DNA from: a bacterium
Lineage (GTDB): Bacteria; Patescibacteriota; Minisyncoccia; Phycocordibacterales; UBA9973
Length of the DNA: 34,603 nt
Assembly (NCBI GenBank): GCA_021831595.1
Contig: JAKBMK010000005.1
Span: forward strand, 1 to 34,603
Direction: 5' to 3'
Position 1 is the first letter of the stretch. The number at the start of each line of letters is the position of its first letter. This document shows positions 2,624-34,603 of this stretch, piece by piece. The notes under the pieces were generated by a model. That model saw nothing but the letters and a program-made list of their open reading frames with translations, was not told the origin of the DNA and made no database searches. The position numbers and the translations under genes are program-made.

Positions 2624-2739
2624 TACATAAGTTTAAAGGTTTTTGTATGTAGCATTTGCTATTTAGTCATTAAAATGTTATTTTTATAAAATAATAGTAA
2701 TAACTTGTCTAGTATAGGATAGGTCAATAAATATAATTT

Positions 2740-3285
2740 ATGGGAAATTTTAATGGTGGGGGTAATAGAGGTGGAGGATTTAGAGGAGGTAATGGTGGAG
2801 GACGCCCAGACTTCAAGAAGGGTGGATTCGGAGGAAATAGAGAGAAGACTATGTATAAAGCAGTCTGTGATGAATGTCACAAGAGTTGTGAAGTTCCTTT
2901 CCGCCCATCTCAAGATAAGCCAATATATTGTAATGATTGTTTTAGTGGCAAGAGGGGGAATGAAGCTCCTCGCCGTGATTTCGGTGGTGATCGTGGTGGT
3001 AATAGAGATTTCGGTAGTAAGCCATCTTTCAGCAAGCCAGCGGGAGCAGGTAACGATATGAGTAAGCAACTAAGTGAAATGAATAGCAAGCTTGATCGTT
3101 TGATTAGTTCTATAGAGAAGTTAGCAGCACCTAAAGCTGCAGTAGCTCCAGTAGTAAAAGCAGCAGCCCCAGCTCCAGTCAAAGTTGCTGCTGTCAAAGT
3201 AGCAGTCAAAGTTCCAGCTAAAAAGGTAGCAGTAAAAGCTCCTGCCAAAAAAGCAGTGAAAGCAGTAAAGAAAGGAAAGAAGTAA
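2740..3285 (+). CDS. CxxC-type zinc-ribbon protein with Gly-rich N-terminus and Ala/Lys/Val-rich basic tail
   Basis: YKAVCDECHKSCEVPFRPSQDKPIYCNDCF (paired CxxC) followed by VKVPAKKVAVKAPAKKAVKAVKKGKK. Confidence 0.75.
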   Translation: MGNFNGGGNRGGGFRGGNGGGRPDFKKGGFGGNREKTMYKAVCDECHKSCEVPFRPSQDKPIYCNDCFSGKRGNEAPRRDFGGDRGGNRDFGSKPSFSKPAGAGNDMSKQLSEMNSKLDRLISSIEKLAAPKAAVAPVVKAAAPAPVKVAAVKVAVKVPAKKVAVKAPAKKAVKAVKKGKK

Positions 3286-4971: not shown

Positions 4972-5436
4972 ATGCGGAGAATTTTCAAGATTATTAATGG
5001 GAGGCTTTATTATATTTCTAGAGTTAAAAGAAAAATTAAGAAGACAAGAAGAAAAAATTTAAATTATTTAAAACACAAAAAAGCTGCGAGCGTTTTGGTA
5101 AAAGAAAGATTAGAATATTTCAATCAGTTTTATAATTATAAATACGGTAGAGTAGCTATCCGGAATCAGAAGACCAGATGGGGGAGTTGTTCTAAAAAGG
5201 GGAATTTAAATTTTAATTACAAGATCGTTTTCCTTACTCCAAAACAAGCCGACTATATAATAGTTCACGAGCTTTGCCATTTGAAAGAATTTAATCACTC
5301 TGTGAGATTTTGGGATTTGGTGGCTAAAGCTGTACCCGAATATAAAGAAATTAGAAGTAGCCTGCGCCAGATAGGGGTTCAACCCCTATCTGGGAGCAGA
5401 AAGTCTTTCTATTTGGGGGAAAATAAGGTAAAGTAA
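4972..5436 (+). CDS. YgjP/SprT-like zinc metallopeptidase (DUF45)
   Basis: RNQKTRWGSCSKKGNLNFNYKIVFLTPKQADYIIVHELCHLKEFNHSVRFWDLV; HExxH-type motif HELCH. Confidence 0.85.
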   Translation: MRRIFKIINGRLYYISRVKRKIKKTRRKNLNYLKHKKAASVLVKERLEYFNQFYNYKYGRVAIRNQKTRWGSCSKKGNLNFNYKIVFLTPKQADYIIVHELCHLKEFNHSVRFWDLVAKAVPEYKEIRSSLRQIGVQPLSGSRKSFYLGENKVK

Positions 5437-5444
5437 GAATCTAT

Positions 5445-6917
5445 ATGGCTCACGGAGAAGTAGTAATACGATTTGAAAAGGTTTCTTTTGAATACGGGCA
5501 CAATAAACCGATACTGGATACGGTAGATTTTTCTGTACGTCGCGGTATGAAAGTGACAATAATGGGGCAGAATGGTGCAGGGAAAAGTACTTTATTCTCA
5601 CTCATTACTGGTGAGAGACAACCAGAGGACGGATCTATAAGTTTGGCTCAGAGGACAACCATTGCTCTTTCTAGACAAGTCATTCCTCGTGATGAACTCG
5701 ATCTCACGGTTCGTGAATTCTTTCAAAAAGTTTTCAAAGAAAAAGTTTACGATATTGATCCTCGTATCGATGATGTGCTAGAGGTAGTTAATTTGAAAGG
5801 ACACGAAAAGGTTCACGAGAGAATCATGCGCTCTTTCTCTGGAGGTCAGCAAGCCCGTCTCCTTCTTGCTTCAGCTTTGATACAAGAGCCAGATATATTG
5901 CTTCTCGATGAACCGACAAATAATCTAGATAAAGCAGGCATTGCTCATCTGACAGATTTCTTAGTAAAATACAAGAAGACAGTTATCGTCATCTCTCACG
6001 ATGCACACTTCCTCAATTCATTTACAGATGCTGTTCTTTATCTCGATGTCTACACAAAAAAGATTGAGCAGTATGTCGGTAACTATACAGATGTTCGCGA
6101 CCAGATAACCGCTAGAATGGAAAGAGAAAATAGAAAAAATGCTTTGCTTTCAAAAGAGATTCAAGCTAAAAAGGATCAAGCCAACGCTTTCGCTATGAAA
6201 GGAGGAAATCTTCGTGCTGTGGCCAAGCGTATGCGAGACTTAGCAGAAGAACTTGAAGAAGAGAAAGTAGATGTCAGACGCGAAGATAAAACAATAAGGA
6301 ATTTCGTTATTCCTACCCAGGATGATTATGTAGGAGATATTGTAACTTTTACATCTGTGCCTATCTATAAGAACCATAAAATAAAAAATATAAAAGTGAA
6401 CGTGAAGCTTCGCAAGAACAAACACTTGCTCCTATCAGGCCCTAATGGAATAGGGAAAAGTACTTTACTTGAATCTATTGTGAAAGGTGAAGTAGAAGGC
6501 ATAAAAGTTCCTCCAGAAGTTAGAGTGGGTTATTACAGGCAAGATTTCTCGACTCTCGATTTTAATGATACAGTCTATGAATCTCTTGCTGAAACTATGA
6601 GGAAGGTGAGTGGTAAGGTTCACGAAGAAACTATTCGCGCGACAGCTGCCAGCTTCCTTATTACTGGTGATATGGTTTATACACAGATAGGTAGCCTTTC
6701 AGAAGGACAGAAAGGACTTGTCGCTTTTGCCACATTGGTTCTTACAAAGCCCGGACTTCTTATATTAGACGAGCCGACAAACCATATAAACTTCCGTCAT
6801 TTACCAGTGATAGCGAAAGCCTTAAGTGAATTCAAAGGAGCAATGATATTGGTATCTCATGTGCCGGATTTTGTAGAGAAAATAAGGATAGATGAAATAC
6901 TTGATTTAGATAAATAA
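5445..6917 (+). CDS. ABC-F family ATP-binding protein
   Basis: Two Walker A motifs (GQNGAGKST, GPNGIGKST), SGGQQARLLLA and SEGQKGLVAFA signatures, no TM segments. Confidence 0.9.
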   Translation: MAHGEVVIRFEKVSFEYGHNKPILDTVDFSVRRGMKVTIMGQNGAGKSTLFSLITGERQPEDGSISLAQRTTIALSRQVIPRDELDLTVREFFQKVFKEKVYDIDPRIDDVLEVVNLKGHEKVHERIMRSFSGGQQARLLLASALIQEPDILLLDEPTNNLDKAGIAHLTDFLVKYKKTVIVISHDAHFLNSFTDAVLYLDVYTKKIEQYVGNYTDVRDQITARMERENRKNALLSKEIQAKKDQANAFAMKGGNLRAVAKRMRDLAEELEEEKVDVRREDKTIRNFVIPTQDDYVGDIVTFTSVPIYKNHKIKNIKVNVKLRKNKHLLLSGPNGIGKSTLLESIVKGEVEGIKVPPEVRVGYYRQDFSTLDFNDTVYESLAETMRKVSGKVHEETIRATAASFLITGDMVYTQIGSLSEGQKGLVAFATLVLTKPGLLILDEPTNHINFRHLPVIAKALSEFKGAMILVSHVPDFVEKIRIDEILDLDK

Positions 6918-6940
6918 AAACCTCCAATTGGAGGTTTTTA
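6915..6940. terminator. Bidirectional-type terminator between convergent genes
   Basis: TAAAAACCTCC-AATT-GGAGGTTTTTA. Confidence 0.8.
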
Positions 6941-6951
6941 TTTTACACAAA

Positions 6952-7896
6952 TTACTTTTTGTTAAAATCTTTCTCTCTCATGATTCGAAATCTTCTCATC
7001 ATATCCAAAGCAATACTTGATTTAGTATATTCATACAAGTCTATACTTTCGTGCATCTTCTCGTCAGTATGAATTTCATTTTTAATATTTCTCAATAAAG
7101 CTTGTATTTTTTCATATTGTAATTTTGCAAAGTCAAATCTAATGTTACTTCTATTTACTTCATGATAGTCTAGTATTGTCTGGAGTTGTTCTTCTATTTG
7201 TAATAAAATCAAATATTTTAATGGATGATTTTCAAGTACCTCATTATTGTCTGTGATATAAGCATTTGCTAGTTCTTCAATGTCTTTTTTTGATGCACCA
7301 ATAATGAATTTTGGAACAAGTAGTCTCCCTTTTTCTTTAGTGTCTGGGTCTTCAAAATATTTTATTGTAGGAATGTTTCCTCCTTCGACATTGTTGGACC
7401 AGTTTTTTTGAAGTTTTTCATAAATCTTTTTATCTTGATTCGTTACAGTGAAATCAAAAGCAATTCCCAAGTAGCCACCTCTCTCGTGTTTCATTATCGC
7501 ATCAATGCCTACTCTTAAATCATCATAATCTGATGTCATGATAGATTTGCAGCCCTTGAACCACTTTTTATTTAGTCTATCTACTATCATTGCCTGGAGG
7601 ATTTCTGATAACTGAAATCCTCCTTCAAGATGTTCGAGATTGTCTCTACCATATGAACTATTTGCTTCCTCTATTTTAGATCTAGTGTATGACACATACT
7701 GTTTATCTTTGTTGATAGATTCACTAGTGTAGTCATTTTCAAATTTTGTGCCAGGCATAGCACCTTTAAAAGAATCCAGATCTTCTGTTCTGTTTGAATA
7801 GACTGTTTCTAGTTTTTTGAATAATAATAATTGATTTTGCTGACTTTCTAAGATACTTGGCTCGTTTTTAATACTAGGTTTAAATTGTTCATTCAT
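6952..7896 (-). CDS. Hypothetical protein, 314 aa
   Basis: Long ORF with TATAAT on the minus strand 8 nt before ATG; no family recognised. Confidence 0.7.
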   Translation of the reverse strand: MNEQFKPSIKNEPSILESQQNQLLLFKKLETVYSNRTEDLDSFKGAMPGTKFENDYTSESINKDKQYVSYTRSKIEEANSSYGRDNLEHLEGGFQLSEILQAMIVDRLNKKWFKGCKSIMTSDYDDLRVGIDAIMKHERGGYLGIAFDFTVTNQDKKIYEKLQKNWSNNVEGGNIPTIKYFEDPDTKEKGRLLVPKFIIGASKKDIEELANAYITDNNEVLENHPLKYLILLQIEEQLQTILDYHEVNRSNIRFDFAKLQYEKIQALLRNIKNEIHTDEKMHESIDLYEYTKSSIALDMMRRFRIMREKDFNKK

Positions 7897-8014
7897 AATT
7901 ACTTATTATATGTCTTTTGGCCCAAAAAACAAATAAAAACATAATAAATTAAAGATATTGAGAAGGGGACTTACTATTGACAAAAGTTAATAAATAGTAT
8001 ATAATATGGGTGTT

Positions 8015-32053: not shown

Positions 32054-32351
32054 TGCAGAATGCGGTATTCATGTCCTTCCCAGAGACTAGCTCTGACGTT
32101 GGCAAAGAATTGATTCGTTGTGATTACACACCTAAAGATGTATAACTTTAGAAAATGCAATTTCTTCATAGCGGTAGATTTTAAAATTTGTTTTTATTAT
32201 ATCCTAATTTTGCATTTTTGCCACATTTTTGGTACTATATCCTAGTCTATAAATTATAGGCACATTTAGTGGTAGTTGAATTAGCGGTTTCCGCTGAGCT
32301 ACCACAAATGATTACATTCCGTGGTAGCTCAGCGGTAGAGCGGTCGCCTGT

Positions 32352-32910
32352 GGAGATTTCCTCCCTAATTGATATAATAAAAGTATGTCAAAGGAAAAAA
32401 GGAAATATGTCGATAGGCGCGAAGCACTTATCAAAGCTGTTGCGAAGAGACGCAAGAAGGTAAAAGAACTTGCGGTCGAATACAAAGGGGGCAAATGTCA
32501 ACTTTGCAATTATTCTAAATGTATAGATGCTCTTGAATTTCATCATATTGATTCTTCCAAAAAAGAATTTGGTATAGGAGATAAAGGGTACACTAGATCT
32601 TGGGATAAGGTGCGCAACGAATTAGATAAATGCATAATACTATGTGCAAATTGCCATAGAGAAATCGCATCAGGCATTACGCAGCTTTCTACTGAAAAGT
32701 AGATTGAAAAACGAGGTGAATTCGGGGAAGCCCTATATGGGTAATCCCGAGCCAAGCTCTGATGGAAATCAGAGAAGGTGTAGAGACTATCCCTTCGGGG
32801 AGTACTCTCCGACAGTAGTCGGAGCGGAAGCGCCTTGGTCCTAAGTTTCTTTGTAAAAAGAAATATGGATGTGATATAGTCCATCCCTTTTAGTAATTTA
32901 AGGATAAATG
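32352..32910 (+). mobile_element. Group I intron (IC3-like) in tRNA-Asn encoding an HNH ORF
   Basis: 5' exon ends in U, intron ends in G; P/Q TTCGGGGAAGCCC...GGGTAATCCCGAGCCAAGC; R AAGGTGTAGAGACTA; S GATATAGTCC; 3' end ATAAATG. Confidence 0.92.
32385..32702 (+). CDS. Intron-encoded HNH homing endonuclease
   Basis: CQLCNYSKCIDALEFHHIDSSKKEFGIG ... NELDKCIILCANCHREI; lies inside the intron upstream of P3-P4. Confidence 0.9.
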   Translation: MSKEKRKYVDRREALIKAVAKRRKKVKELAVEYKGGKCQLCNYSKCIDALEFHHIDSSKKEFGIGDKGYTRSWDKVRNELDKCIILCANCHREIASGITQLSTEK

Positions 32911-33023
32911 TAAGCGATTGGTCGTAGGTTCGATCCCTACCCACGGAGCCATTCAGTATACACCCCCATATTGTCAAAATACGGCGCGCGCTTCGCGCGT
33001 ATTAGCGTCGTGGCGGGTGTGGC

Positions 33024-33102
33024 GGGAACCCAAGAATTCCAAAGGATTCCCCAAGAATTTTTTGGGAAGAAAAGAAGTGTGCGGGAAGCGAGGAGAGGGT
33101 TC
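33024..33102. repeat. 79-nt perfect inverted repeat, left copy
   Basis: Exact reverse complement of 34525-34603. Confidence 0.97.
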
Positions 33103-33178
33103 CCTAATGATTACATTAGTCAAAATATTAATTTTGTGAGCCAATCGTGAAGCAATAATTTTAAAACCCAAAAGCAAT

Positions 33179-34603
33179 ATGAAATATTTTTTATATATAC
33201 GCAAATCTACCGACGAGGACGACCGACAAGTATTATCTCTCGAAGCACAAGAATTTGAATTGAATGAATTTGCCCGACGAGAGCATTTGATTATCGCCGA
33301 GACATTTCGGGAATCACAAACGGCGAAATGTCCCGGGCGACCCGTATTCAATCAAATGCTCGACAGAATGGAGCGTGGCGAAGCAGAAGGAATTTTAGCT
33401 TGGCATCCCGACCGACTAGCGAGGAACTCCGTTGACGGCGGACGAATAATTTACTTTGTCGATTCTTTAAAAATAACGGCGCTAAAATTCCCAACATTTT
33501 GGTTTGAAGCCACGCCCCAAGGCAAATTCATGCTATCTATTGCTTTTGGGCAATCGAAGTATTTTGTAGACAATCTTTCAGAAAATACTAAGCGCGGTTT
33601 GCGTCAAAAGTTACGACGAGGCGAATGGCCCGGCTGGGCACCGCTCGGTTATCTAAACGATCAACTCAAGCACAATATTATAAAAGACGATGAACGATTT
33701 CGCCTCGTCAGAAAACTTTTTGAATTATACGCAACCGGCAACTACTCGATGAAAGATTTACAAAATACTGCAAATAAATTTGGCTTGTTTGGAAAAAGTG
33801 GAAAAGTCTTATCGGTTTCGCTCATCGCACATACGCTTTCCAATCCTTTTTATTACGGCGTTTTCCGATATAACGGCGAGCTTCACGAAGGTAAACACGA
33901 GCCAATGATTTCAAAGACACTTTTTGATAAATGCTCGCAAGTAATGGCGAACAAGTCACAACCAAAGAAACGCCACATCGCACAGACGACACTCCGTGGA
34001 TTACTAAATTGTAAAGATTGCGGTTGTGCCATTACTTCCGAAATACAAAAAGGGCATCATTATTATCGTTGCACGAAGAAACGAGGTAATTGTGGCAACG
34101 GCTATATTCGTGAAGAATTACTCGTCGACCAAATAAATGATGTCCTTCAAAAAGTGTCCTTGCCTCCATCTTGGGCAGATAGTATGCTCGCAGAACTCGA
34201 AAAAGAACGCGAGCAAGAAAAACAAGATGGAGTCCTCTTTGCTCAAAATCTAAAATTACAGATTGAGGATTTTAATAATCGAATAGAAAAATTACTCGAC
34301 GCACATCTCGACGGACTTATTCCGAAGGAAGAGTATACGACGAAAAAACAAAAAATCCTCAATCAGAAAATTGATCTTGAGGAAAAATTACAAGATTTTG
34401 AGCAAAGGGGCAATCATTGGCTCGAACCGATGCGACTTTTCATTTTAGATAGTAAACAAGCCACAATTATCGCTTCCGAAGAAAATTTGGAAGACAAGAA
34501 AAATTTTCTTAAAAAGATTGGCTCGAACCCTCTCCTCGCTTCCCGCACACTTCTTTTCTTCCCAAAAAATTCTTGGGGAATCCTTTGGAATTCTTGGGTT
34601 CCC
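33179..34603 (+). CDS. Large serine site-specific recombinase, truncated by window end
   Basis: MKYFLYIRKSTDEDDRQVLSLEAQ ... ILAWHPDRLARNSVDGG ... recombinase domain GYL...FRLVRKLFELYATGNYS ... zinc ribbon LLNCKDCGCAITSE...YYRCTKKRGNCGN. Open to the last base (475 codons, no stop), hence absent from the ORF track. Confidence 0.93.
   Translation, partial: MKYFLYIRKSTDEDDRQVLSLEAQEFELNEFARREHLIIAETFRESQTAKCPGRPVFNQMLDRMERGEAEGILAWHPDRLARNSVDGGRIIYFVDSLKITALKFPTFWFEATPQGKFMLSIAFGQSKYFVDNLSENTKRGLRQKLRRGEWPGWAPLGYLNDQLKHNIIKDDERFRLVRKLFELYATGNYSMKDLQNTANKFGLFGKSGKVLSVSLIAHTLSNPFYYGVFRYNGELHEGKHEPMISKTLFDKCSQVMANKSQPKKRHIAQTTLRGLLNCKDCGCAITSEIQKGHHYYRCTKKRGNCGNGYIREELLVDQINDVLQKVSLPPSWADSMLAELEKEREQEKQDGVLFAQNLKLQIEDFNNRIEKLLDAHLDGLIPKEEYTTKKQKILNQKIDLEEKLQDFEQRGNHWLEPMRLFILDSKQATIIASEENLEDKKNFLKKIGSNPLLASRTLLFFPKNSWGILWNSWVP
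34525..34603. repeat. 79-nt perfect inverted repeat, right copy (in the 3' part of the recombinase gene)
   Basis: Exact reverse complement of 33024-33102; ends at the last base of the window. Confidence 0.97.

Follow-up and report, generated by a model that had tools for sequence, protein, structure and literature searches.

Integrons comprise the tyrosine integrase IntI, attC sites, and exchangeable cargo cassettes, which occur in arrays. The yeast 2-micron plasmid is a circle with two inverted sites, and its recombinase, Flp, belongs to the tyrosine recombinases. In CTX-phi, single-stranded DNA folds so that copies pair into a double-stranded attP. Catalysis by large serine integrases is directional and under the control of an RDF. 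tRNA genes are the typical targets of SSV-type elements. To our knowledge, descriptions of mobile elements from the reduced genomes of Patescibacteria are few. The suicidal integrases of archaeal SSV-type elements are tyrosine recombinases with a Phage_integr_3 domain, and the suicidal trait is stated to be exclusive to Archaea (PMC8371274). In the attachment sites of serine integrases, the zinc-ribbon motif of attB is shifted 5 bp inward relative to that of attP, and this shift is a signature of these enzymes (PMC3783163).

The inverted repeat beside tRNA-Asn

The DNA analyzed here (the window, 34,603 nt) is an entire contig (C16) of an assembly of 807 kb in 33 contigs. The genome is closely related to assemblies of Candidatus Nomurabacteria/Paceibacterota and therefore belongs to a patescibacterium. 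At its right end, a large serine integrase gene lies beside a tRNA-Asn gene and is bracketed by an inverted repeat. The main reading, to which a probability of about 0.75 is assigned, is that the repeat shows what can be seen of an attachment-site arm, A, which is present in two inverted copies around the integrase gene of an element integrated at the 3' end of tRNA-Asn. The region contains the following features.

32318-32351, + strand: 5' exon of tRNA-Asn(GTT), found by ARAGORN after removal of the intron.
32352-32910, + strand: group I intron in the tRNA-Asn anticodon loop, with a small HNH-like ORF (32385-32702); Rfam RF00028, 53.1 bits, 32642-32903.
32911-32951, + strand: 3' exon of tRNA-Asn, the predicted B half of attB; its T-loop TTCGA (32929-32933) is 12 nt away from the core, a geometry seen in 39 relatives.
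32946-32949, + strand: predicted 4-nt crossover core GAGC at the tRNA 3' end; P of contig C3 and P of G010 have the same core, with TTCGG at a distance of 17 nt; empty site in G003.
32946-33102, + strand: tRNA-side copy of arm A, about 157 nt, with the exact repeat 33024-33102 and a GC hairpin near 32982-32999; located here at the 5' side of the integrase gene; homologous arms in G010 and G049.
33179-34603, + strand: large serine integrase (Resolvase, Recombinase, and Zn-ribbon domains by Pfam; similar to A118 integrase structure 4kis), open at the contig end.
34525-34603, - strand: copy of arm A at the 3' side of the integrase gene, encoding the C-terminal segment of the integrase; cut by the contig end; in the joined sequence, the frame stays open over the missing part of the arm and enters P.

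Positions 33024-33102 and 34525-34603 of the window are exact reverse complements (79/79). They form the sole long perfect inverted pair in the window, where about 1e-37 pairs of this kind would be expected by chance, and no further occurrence of the 79-mer was found in the whole assembly. The length of 79 nt is a lower bound, as the right copy is cut by the contig end. This right copy encodes the C terminus of the recombinase, and the left copy, which sits between the start of the integrase gene and tRNA-Asn, is an inverted duplicate of the 3' end of that gene. The repeat and the nature of both copies had been described in the first-pass annotation and were borne out. That annotation missed that the repeat is one arm of the integrase's own predicted attachment site, that this site lies inside the integrase reading frame, and that a second inverted pair further out bounds a cargo cassette. 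The extent of the tRNA-side arm, from the core to 33102, was derived from the arms of relatives. On the inner side, the repeat stops where the integrase core ends with its conserved KKxGSN motif, and the codon is the same in other genera. A GC hairpin of the GCGAAGC type is present in each arm; its stem sequence varies among elements while its pairing is kept.

The tRNA-Asn(GTT) gene was recognized by ARAGORN only with the 559-nt intron removed. This intron shows about 90% identity to that of the congeners G007, G009, G014, and G019, and tRNA-Asn is uninterrupted in other congeners. The ORF within the intron matched no Pfam or NCBIfam model, and its HNH-like reading was made by eye. Just upstream of the tRNA gene lies a 15-nt inverted copy of its 5' end (32291-32305 versus 32321-32335), and the 12-mer aatgattacatt between these two segments recurs at about 33106-33117, just inside the arm.

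All three domains of the window integrase score above the Pfam cut-offs, and its similarity to 4kis has an E value of 9e-5. The best NCBIfam similarities are to CcrB and CcrC, with Ccr scores of 101.5, 69.3, and 57.5 bits versus CcrA/B/C cut-offs of 900, 900, and 700. Pfam analysis revealed serine recombinase domains only and no tyrosine recombinase or Phage_integr_3 domain. Other copies of the integrase in the genome of the window are located at tRNA-Gly, tRNA-Glu, and tmRNA; the copy at 2668-3183 of locus L039 (contig C30) adjoins the 3' end of tmRNA, not of a tRNA. Viral contigs yielded two truncated relatives only, and the relatives in plasmid and phage records are all below 60% identity.

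Arms, attachment sites, and the integrase tail in relatives

Relatives were taken from the 61 genomes of a first search and then from 80 contigs of the GTDB collection (80 loci from Patescibacteria and Elusimicrobia), most of these loci being metagenome assemblies. Inverted arms flank the homologous integrase gene in 57 of the 80 loci, with a median length of 121 nt and a median identity of 98.5% (20 pairs are perfect), and the inner arm boundary lies at the same KKxGSN codon across loci. The closed genome AP024682.1 (L231) also carries such arms. At the 3' arm of the integrase gene, an antisense tRNA gene was found in 61 of the 80 loci (mostly Ser, also Gln and others, and tmRNA twice), with nearly all of these arms covering the final 4 to 6 nt of the tRNA. 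The 5' arm adjoins a conserved flank, P. Beyond this flank lies a second inverted pair, the P arms (median of 204 nt and 99.5% identity in 19 loci), which enclose a cargo of 1.7 to 7 kb. The full order of an integrated element is tRNA / A, int, A' / P', cargo, P / chromosome. This anatomy, with its sites, arms, and attP inside the integrase gene, can be proposed with high confidence.

In loci L196 and L197, the integrase body is 100% identical and the outer arms are unrelated (46%), whereas the arms within each element are 94 to 100% identical. This pattern indicates that the two arms of one element evolve together. A transposon with terminal inverted repeats was considered and rejected, since the outside of the element is bounded by the tRNA end at one side and by the conserved P flank at the other. 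An origin of the arm sequence by copying from the target locus was likewise rejected, because native sequences downstream of the tRNA genes are unlike the arms. To the right of arm A, loci L212, L230, and L253 share a non-tRNA sequence (..ACCCGAGTG..CCGC or similar) that is unnamed by Rfam and may be a tRNA remnant or another target; Rfam matches near it in L230 were microRNA noise.

In silico removal of a 4.1-kb element from genome G020 yielded a contiguous tRNA-Ser(CGA)/tRNA-Val(GAC) region that is intact in at least 10 congeners. The far end of the window's element was found at the start of contig C3, which reads P / GAGC / chromosome. Joining the tRNA-Asn end of the window to the chromosomal part of C3 gave a junction sequence identical to that of congener G003 (48/48 nt), with a homologous gene downstream of it. 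In three congeners, tRNA-Asn is found without an arm. The end of contig C29 was also tried as the missing far end; its core is CAGC, and C3 was preferred for its GAGC core and its flank matching G003. This end of C29 (L122, near 1500) holds a P-like site and is probably the far end of another element of the same family. Comparison of these occupied and empty sites indicates integration at a predicted attB, giving attL and attR.

The T-loop motif TTC.A of the tRNA lies 12 nt from the 4-nt core (39 loci), and TTCG in P lies exactly 17 nt from it in 33 of the 39 loci, which corresponds to a 5-bp attP/attB shift measured on one half-site. The core is the same on both sides in 39/39 loci (CCGC for Ser, CAGC or CAAC for Gln, and CCGA in some Elusimicrobia), partly by construction, because it lies inside the repeat. 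From this geometry, the published shift, and the similarity to the A118 integrase, tRNA/chromosome is assigned as the predicted attB, P/A as attP, tRNA/A as attL, and P/chromosome as attR. The A'/P' junction inside the element corresponds to attP in inverted orientation, so that an excised circle would carry two inverted attP sites.

By these assignments, the predicted attP lies inside the integrase reading frame. When the frame is followed from A over the core into P, no stop interrupts it before the junction in 36 of 39 loci, and in most loci it terminates in a conserved P-encoded tail of 16 to 20 residues, R(C/Y)LLDKVRxFFExNPDD. At attL, the tail is replaced by tRNA-antisense residues; integration would swap the conserved tail for tRNA-antisense codons. 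Joining the window integrase and arm to P of G010 continues the frame to ...TEWLPLYHKIRTFFAENPNEEF, followed by a stop, if the outer part of the right arm, which the contig end cuts off, has the sequence of the left arm. The tail is naturally carried by the flipped locus L199 and by L050. In the tail codons beyond the DNA-binding motif, variation is 0.56 at the third position versus 0.22 at the first and 0.33 at the second (permutation p 0.006, kinship ignored). The KVR residues overlap the DNA motif GTTCGA, and part of the tail conservation may therefore be for DNA binding. The predicted structure places the tail in a C-terminal helix, which was not counted as evidence because of its low confidence (pLDDT below 50).

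Orientation of the cassettes and a possible tail latch

After the loci had been oriented, the integrase showed the common orientation in 61 of the 80 loci and was flipped in three or four. In L199, the integrase is flipped relative to the tRNA, and the arms differ in their outer halves; the flipped order is therefore not a repeat collapse. In L226 and in the window, the tRNA lies at the 5' arm of the integrase gene, and both loci are cut by contig ends. A cargo cassette common to L050 (genome G033) and L203 is 98.45% identical over 2,712 nt and inverted relative to the integrase; its large protein is identical in 516/516 residues, and the integrase cassettes of the two loci are only 84.7% identical. 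A small XRE-type HTH gene was found in 16 of 20 cargos, beside the P' arm in most. In L203 and L048, it lies at the opposite cargo end, and by this mark the cargo is inverted. Judged by sequence, the segment between inverted repeats occurs in both orientations for the integrase (L199 versus the common order) and for the cargo (L203 versus L050); these flips are known from comparison between genomes, and no recombination was seen within any one genome. The cassette next to tRNA-Asn, described at first pass as possibly invertible or mobile, is regarded as mobile and probably invertible.

Tandem arrays were found in L231 (the closed genome) and L251. In L197 (9778-11596), the integrase cassette has a tRNA-Ser gene on each side, and the two are different (GGA and GCT); the cassette looks as if the internal attP had recombined with the second tRNA. 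The cargos encode restriction-modification functions (HpaII and TdeIII endonucleases, type I and Eco57I-like methylases), a diversity-generating retroelement, D-Ala-D-Ala ligase, cytochrome D1, DHDPS with an aminotransferase, HSP70/GrpE, and transporters. In the L044 cargo (5248-7953), the diversity-generating retroelement consists of a reverse transcriptase and an Lcl_C-domain target protein.

In the mechanism proposed here, the tailed integrase would drive movement of the element. Integration at the attP inside its gene would remove the tail and leave a locked integrated element. The inverted copy of A would let the integrase cassette flip, by the action of the integrase or by homologous recombination between the arms, so that the integrase gene would be rejoined to P and the tail restored. 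The common orientation, with the tail lost, would be the locked state, and the rare flipped orientation (L199, and the window if the contig is right) would be the tail-on state, in which the element regains its mobility. The tail would thus serve as a directionality latch built into the integrase. Such a latch would explain the retention of the inverted arm and the dominance of the tail-less orientation, and it is put forward tentatively, at somewhat less than even odds. Against it, the few flipped loci (three or four versus 61) may be rare events and not a switch, and recombination of attP with attP is not an expected reaction of serine integrases (PMC3783163). The small XRE protein of most cargos is an alternative directionality factor.

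Whether the window itself shows the flipped state depends on one contig that ends inside an arm. We lean toward a true flip of its integrase cassette. The competing explanation, which appears less probable but still deserves serious weight, is that the element is as described and the contig joins tRNA-Asn to the wrong side of the integrase gene, the true order being the common one, with the integrase 3' end at the tRNA, as in G049. The 61 of 80 loci with this order speak for such a misjoin, and so do the A arms, which are usually identical over 120 to 150 nt, near or above the k-mer size of the assembly. This size was estimated by comparing both ends of all 33 contigs for exact overlaps: the overlaps cluster at 125 to 127 nt, with one of 73 and none of 79, which indicates an assembler k of about 127. 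Arms identical over at least 127 nt could have let the assembler join the wrong side, and the contig does end inside an arm. However, a contig end at a graph branch should share about 126 nt with the other copy, and only 79 nt are shared here, which suggests that the join was not a choice between repeat copies. A fully resolved flipped example also exists in L199.

A role of the inverted attP copy in replication or transfer, instead of in a latch, is considered unlikely. By analogy, the copy could serve a circle with two inverted sites, like that of the yeast 2-micron plasmid, or single-stranded DNA that folds the copies into one double-stranded attP, like that of CTX-phi. The predicted circle would indeed carry two inverted attP sites, and the A arms and P arms are each near-identical within an element and different between elements, as such a role would lead one to expect. 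However, no replication gene common to the cargos was found, the small XRE regulator being the only widely shared gene, and no circular form of the element was found. A serine recombinase that cuts double strands would, moreover, leave hairpin ends on a folded site and not a simple insertion.

A simple invertible phase-variation switch, in which the recombinase only flips its cassette and no mobile element exists, is very improbable. It would account for inverted repeats that bracket a recombinase and for the two orientations of the integrase and the cargo, but the empty sites, the attB/attP geometry, the many tRNA targets, and the presence of one cargo in two genomes point to an integrative element, and the orientation is far from 50:50.

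Least probable of all, and dismissed here, is the graph-loop or k-mer artefact that the first-pass annotation had raised, or a fold-back (amplification) chimera at the contig end, as the maker of the second copy: the match does stop at the last base of the contig, and repeats break short-read assemblies here and in relatives, but no contig-end overlap has the 79 nt of the repeat, which excludes a k-mer artefact, and both arms are conserved in relatives (the 5'-side arm in G010, the 3'-side arm beside tRNA-Asn in G049), which excludes a fold-back chimera, and many independent genomes, one of them closed, carry near-identical arms mid-contig with the boundary at the same codon. An artefact is refuted as the source of the repeat's existence. 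Of the earlier interpretation, the inverted duplicate and the mobile, probably invertible cassette were supported, and the graph-loop alternative was not.

Comparison with known systems

The elements are tentatively suggested to form a new class of bacterial cassettes, although the chance is put below one half. In this class, integrase and cargo would each lie between inverted arms, with attP inside the integrase gene and an inverted duplicate of it; inversion of the integrase cassette would switch between tail-less locked and tailed mobile forms, and tRNA genes across Patescibacteria and Elusimicrobia would be places where cassettes are inverted, exchanged, and stacked. The open-access literature searched contained no report of a serine integrase with attP in its gene, of a duplicated inverted attP, or of such cassettes in Patescibacteria, and the family is a widespread and apparently undescribed kind of mobile DNA. 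It would give Patescibacteria a common mobile element that moves restriction-modification systems, diversity-generating retroelements, ligases, transporters, and chaperones between lineages. As far as found in the open-access literature, it would be the first serine integrase with an attachment site in its own gene. How a serine integrase chooses between integration and excision becomes open to direct testing, by attaching or deleting a single short tail. Where inverted arms and contig breaks are found next to tRNA genes in these genomes, they can be biology and not assembly error.

The predicted circle resembles the yeast 2-micron plasmid in that two inverted recombination sites would split a recombinase half from the other half. 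Unlike in the 2-micron plasmid, the enzyme is a serine recombinase, and no circular form was seen and no replication genes were found. With integrons, the family shares an integrase, exchangeable cargo cassettes, and arrays, but the enzyme here is a serine recombinase and the cargo lies between inverted P arms. Staphylococcal cassette chromosome (SCC) elements, with their ccr recombinases, are similar in combining serine recombinases with cargo at the 3' end of a conserved gene and in forming tandem cassettes. SCC inserts in rlmH, whereas the elements described here insert at the 3' ends of tRNA or tmRNA genes. The window integrase also scores far below the Ccr cut-offs (101.5 versus 900 bits), and the long inverted arms around integrase and cargo and the predicted attP inside the gene further distinguish these elements from SCC.

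The enzyme and its chemistry are of a known kind, and an attP inside the integrase gene is known from the archaeal tyrosine suicidal integrases (PMC8371274). The phage large serine integrases, such as that of Listeria phage A118 (PMC3783163), have the same domain order, and the window family shows similarity to the solved A118 DNA-binding region and the 5-bp attP/attB motif shift. The family departs from these phage systems in that its predicted attP is part of the integrase coding sequence, an inverted duplicate of this site exists, and the T-loop of a tRNA supplies the attB motif. With the SSV-type integrases (PMC8371274), the family shares an attP in the integrase gene and a gene that is altered or broken by integration, as indicated by the 36 of 39 open frames and the replaced tail. 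In contrast to the SSV type, the enzyme here is a serine and not a tyrosine recombinase, the hosts are Bacteria, only a short C-terminal tail would be lost, and an inverted spare copy could restore it.
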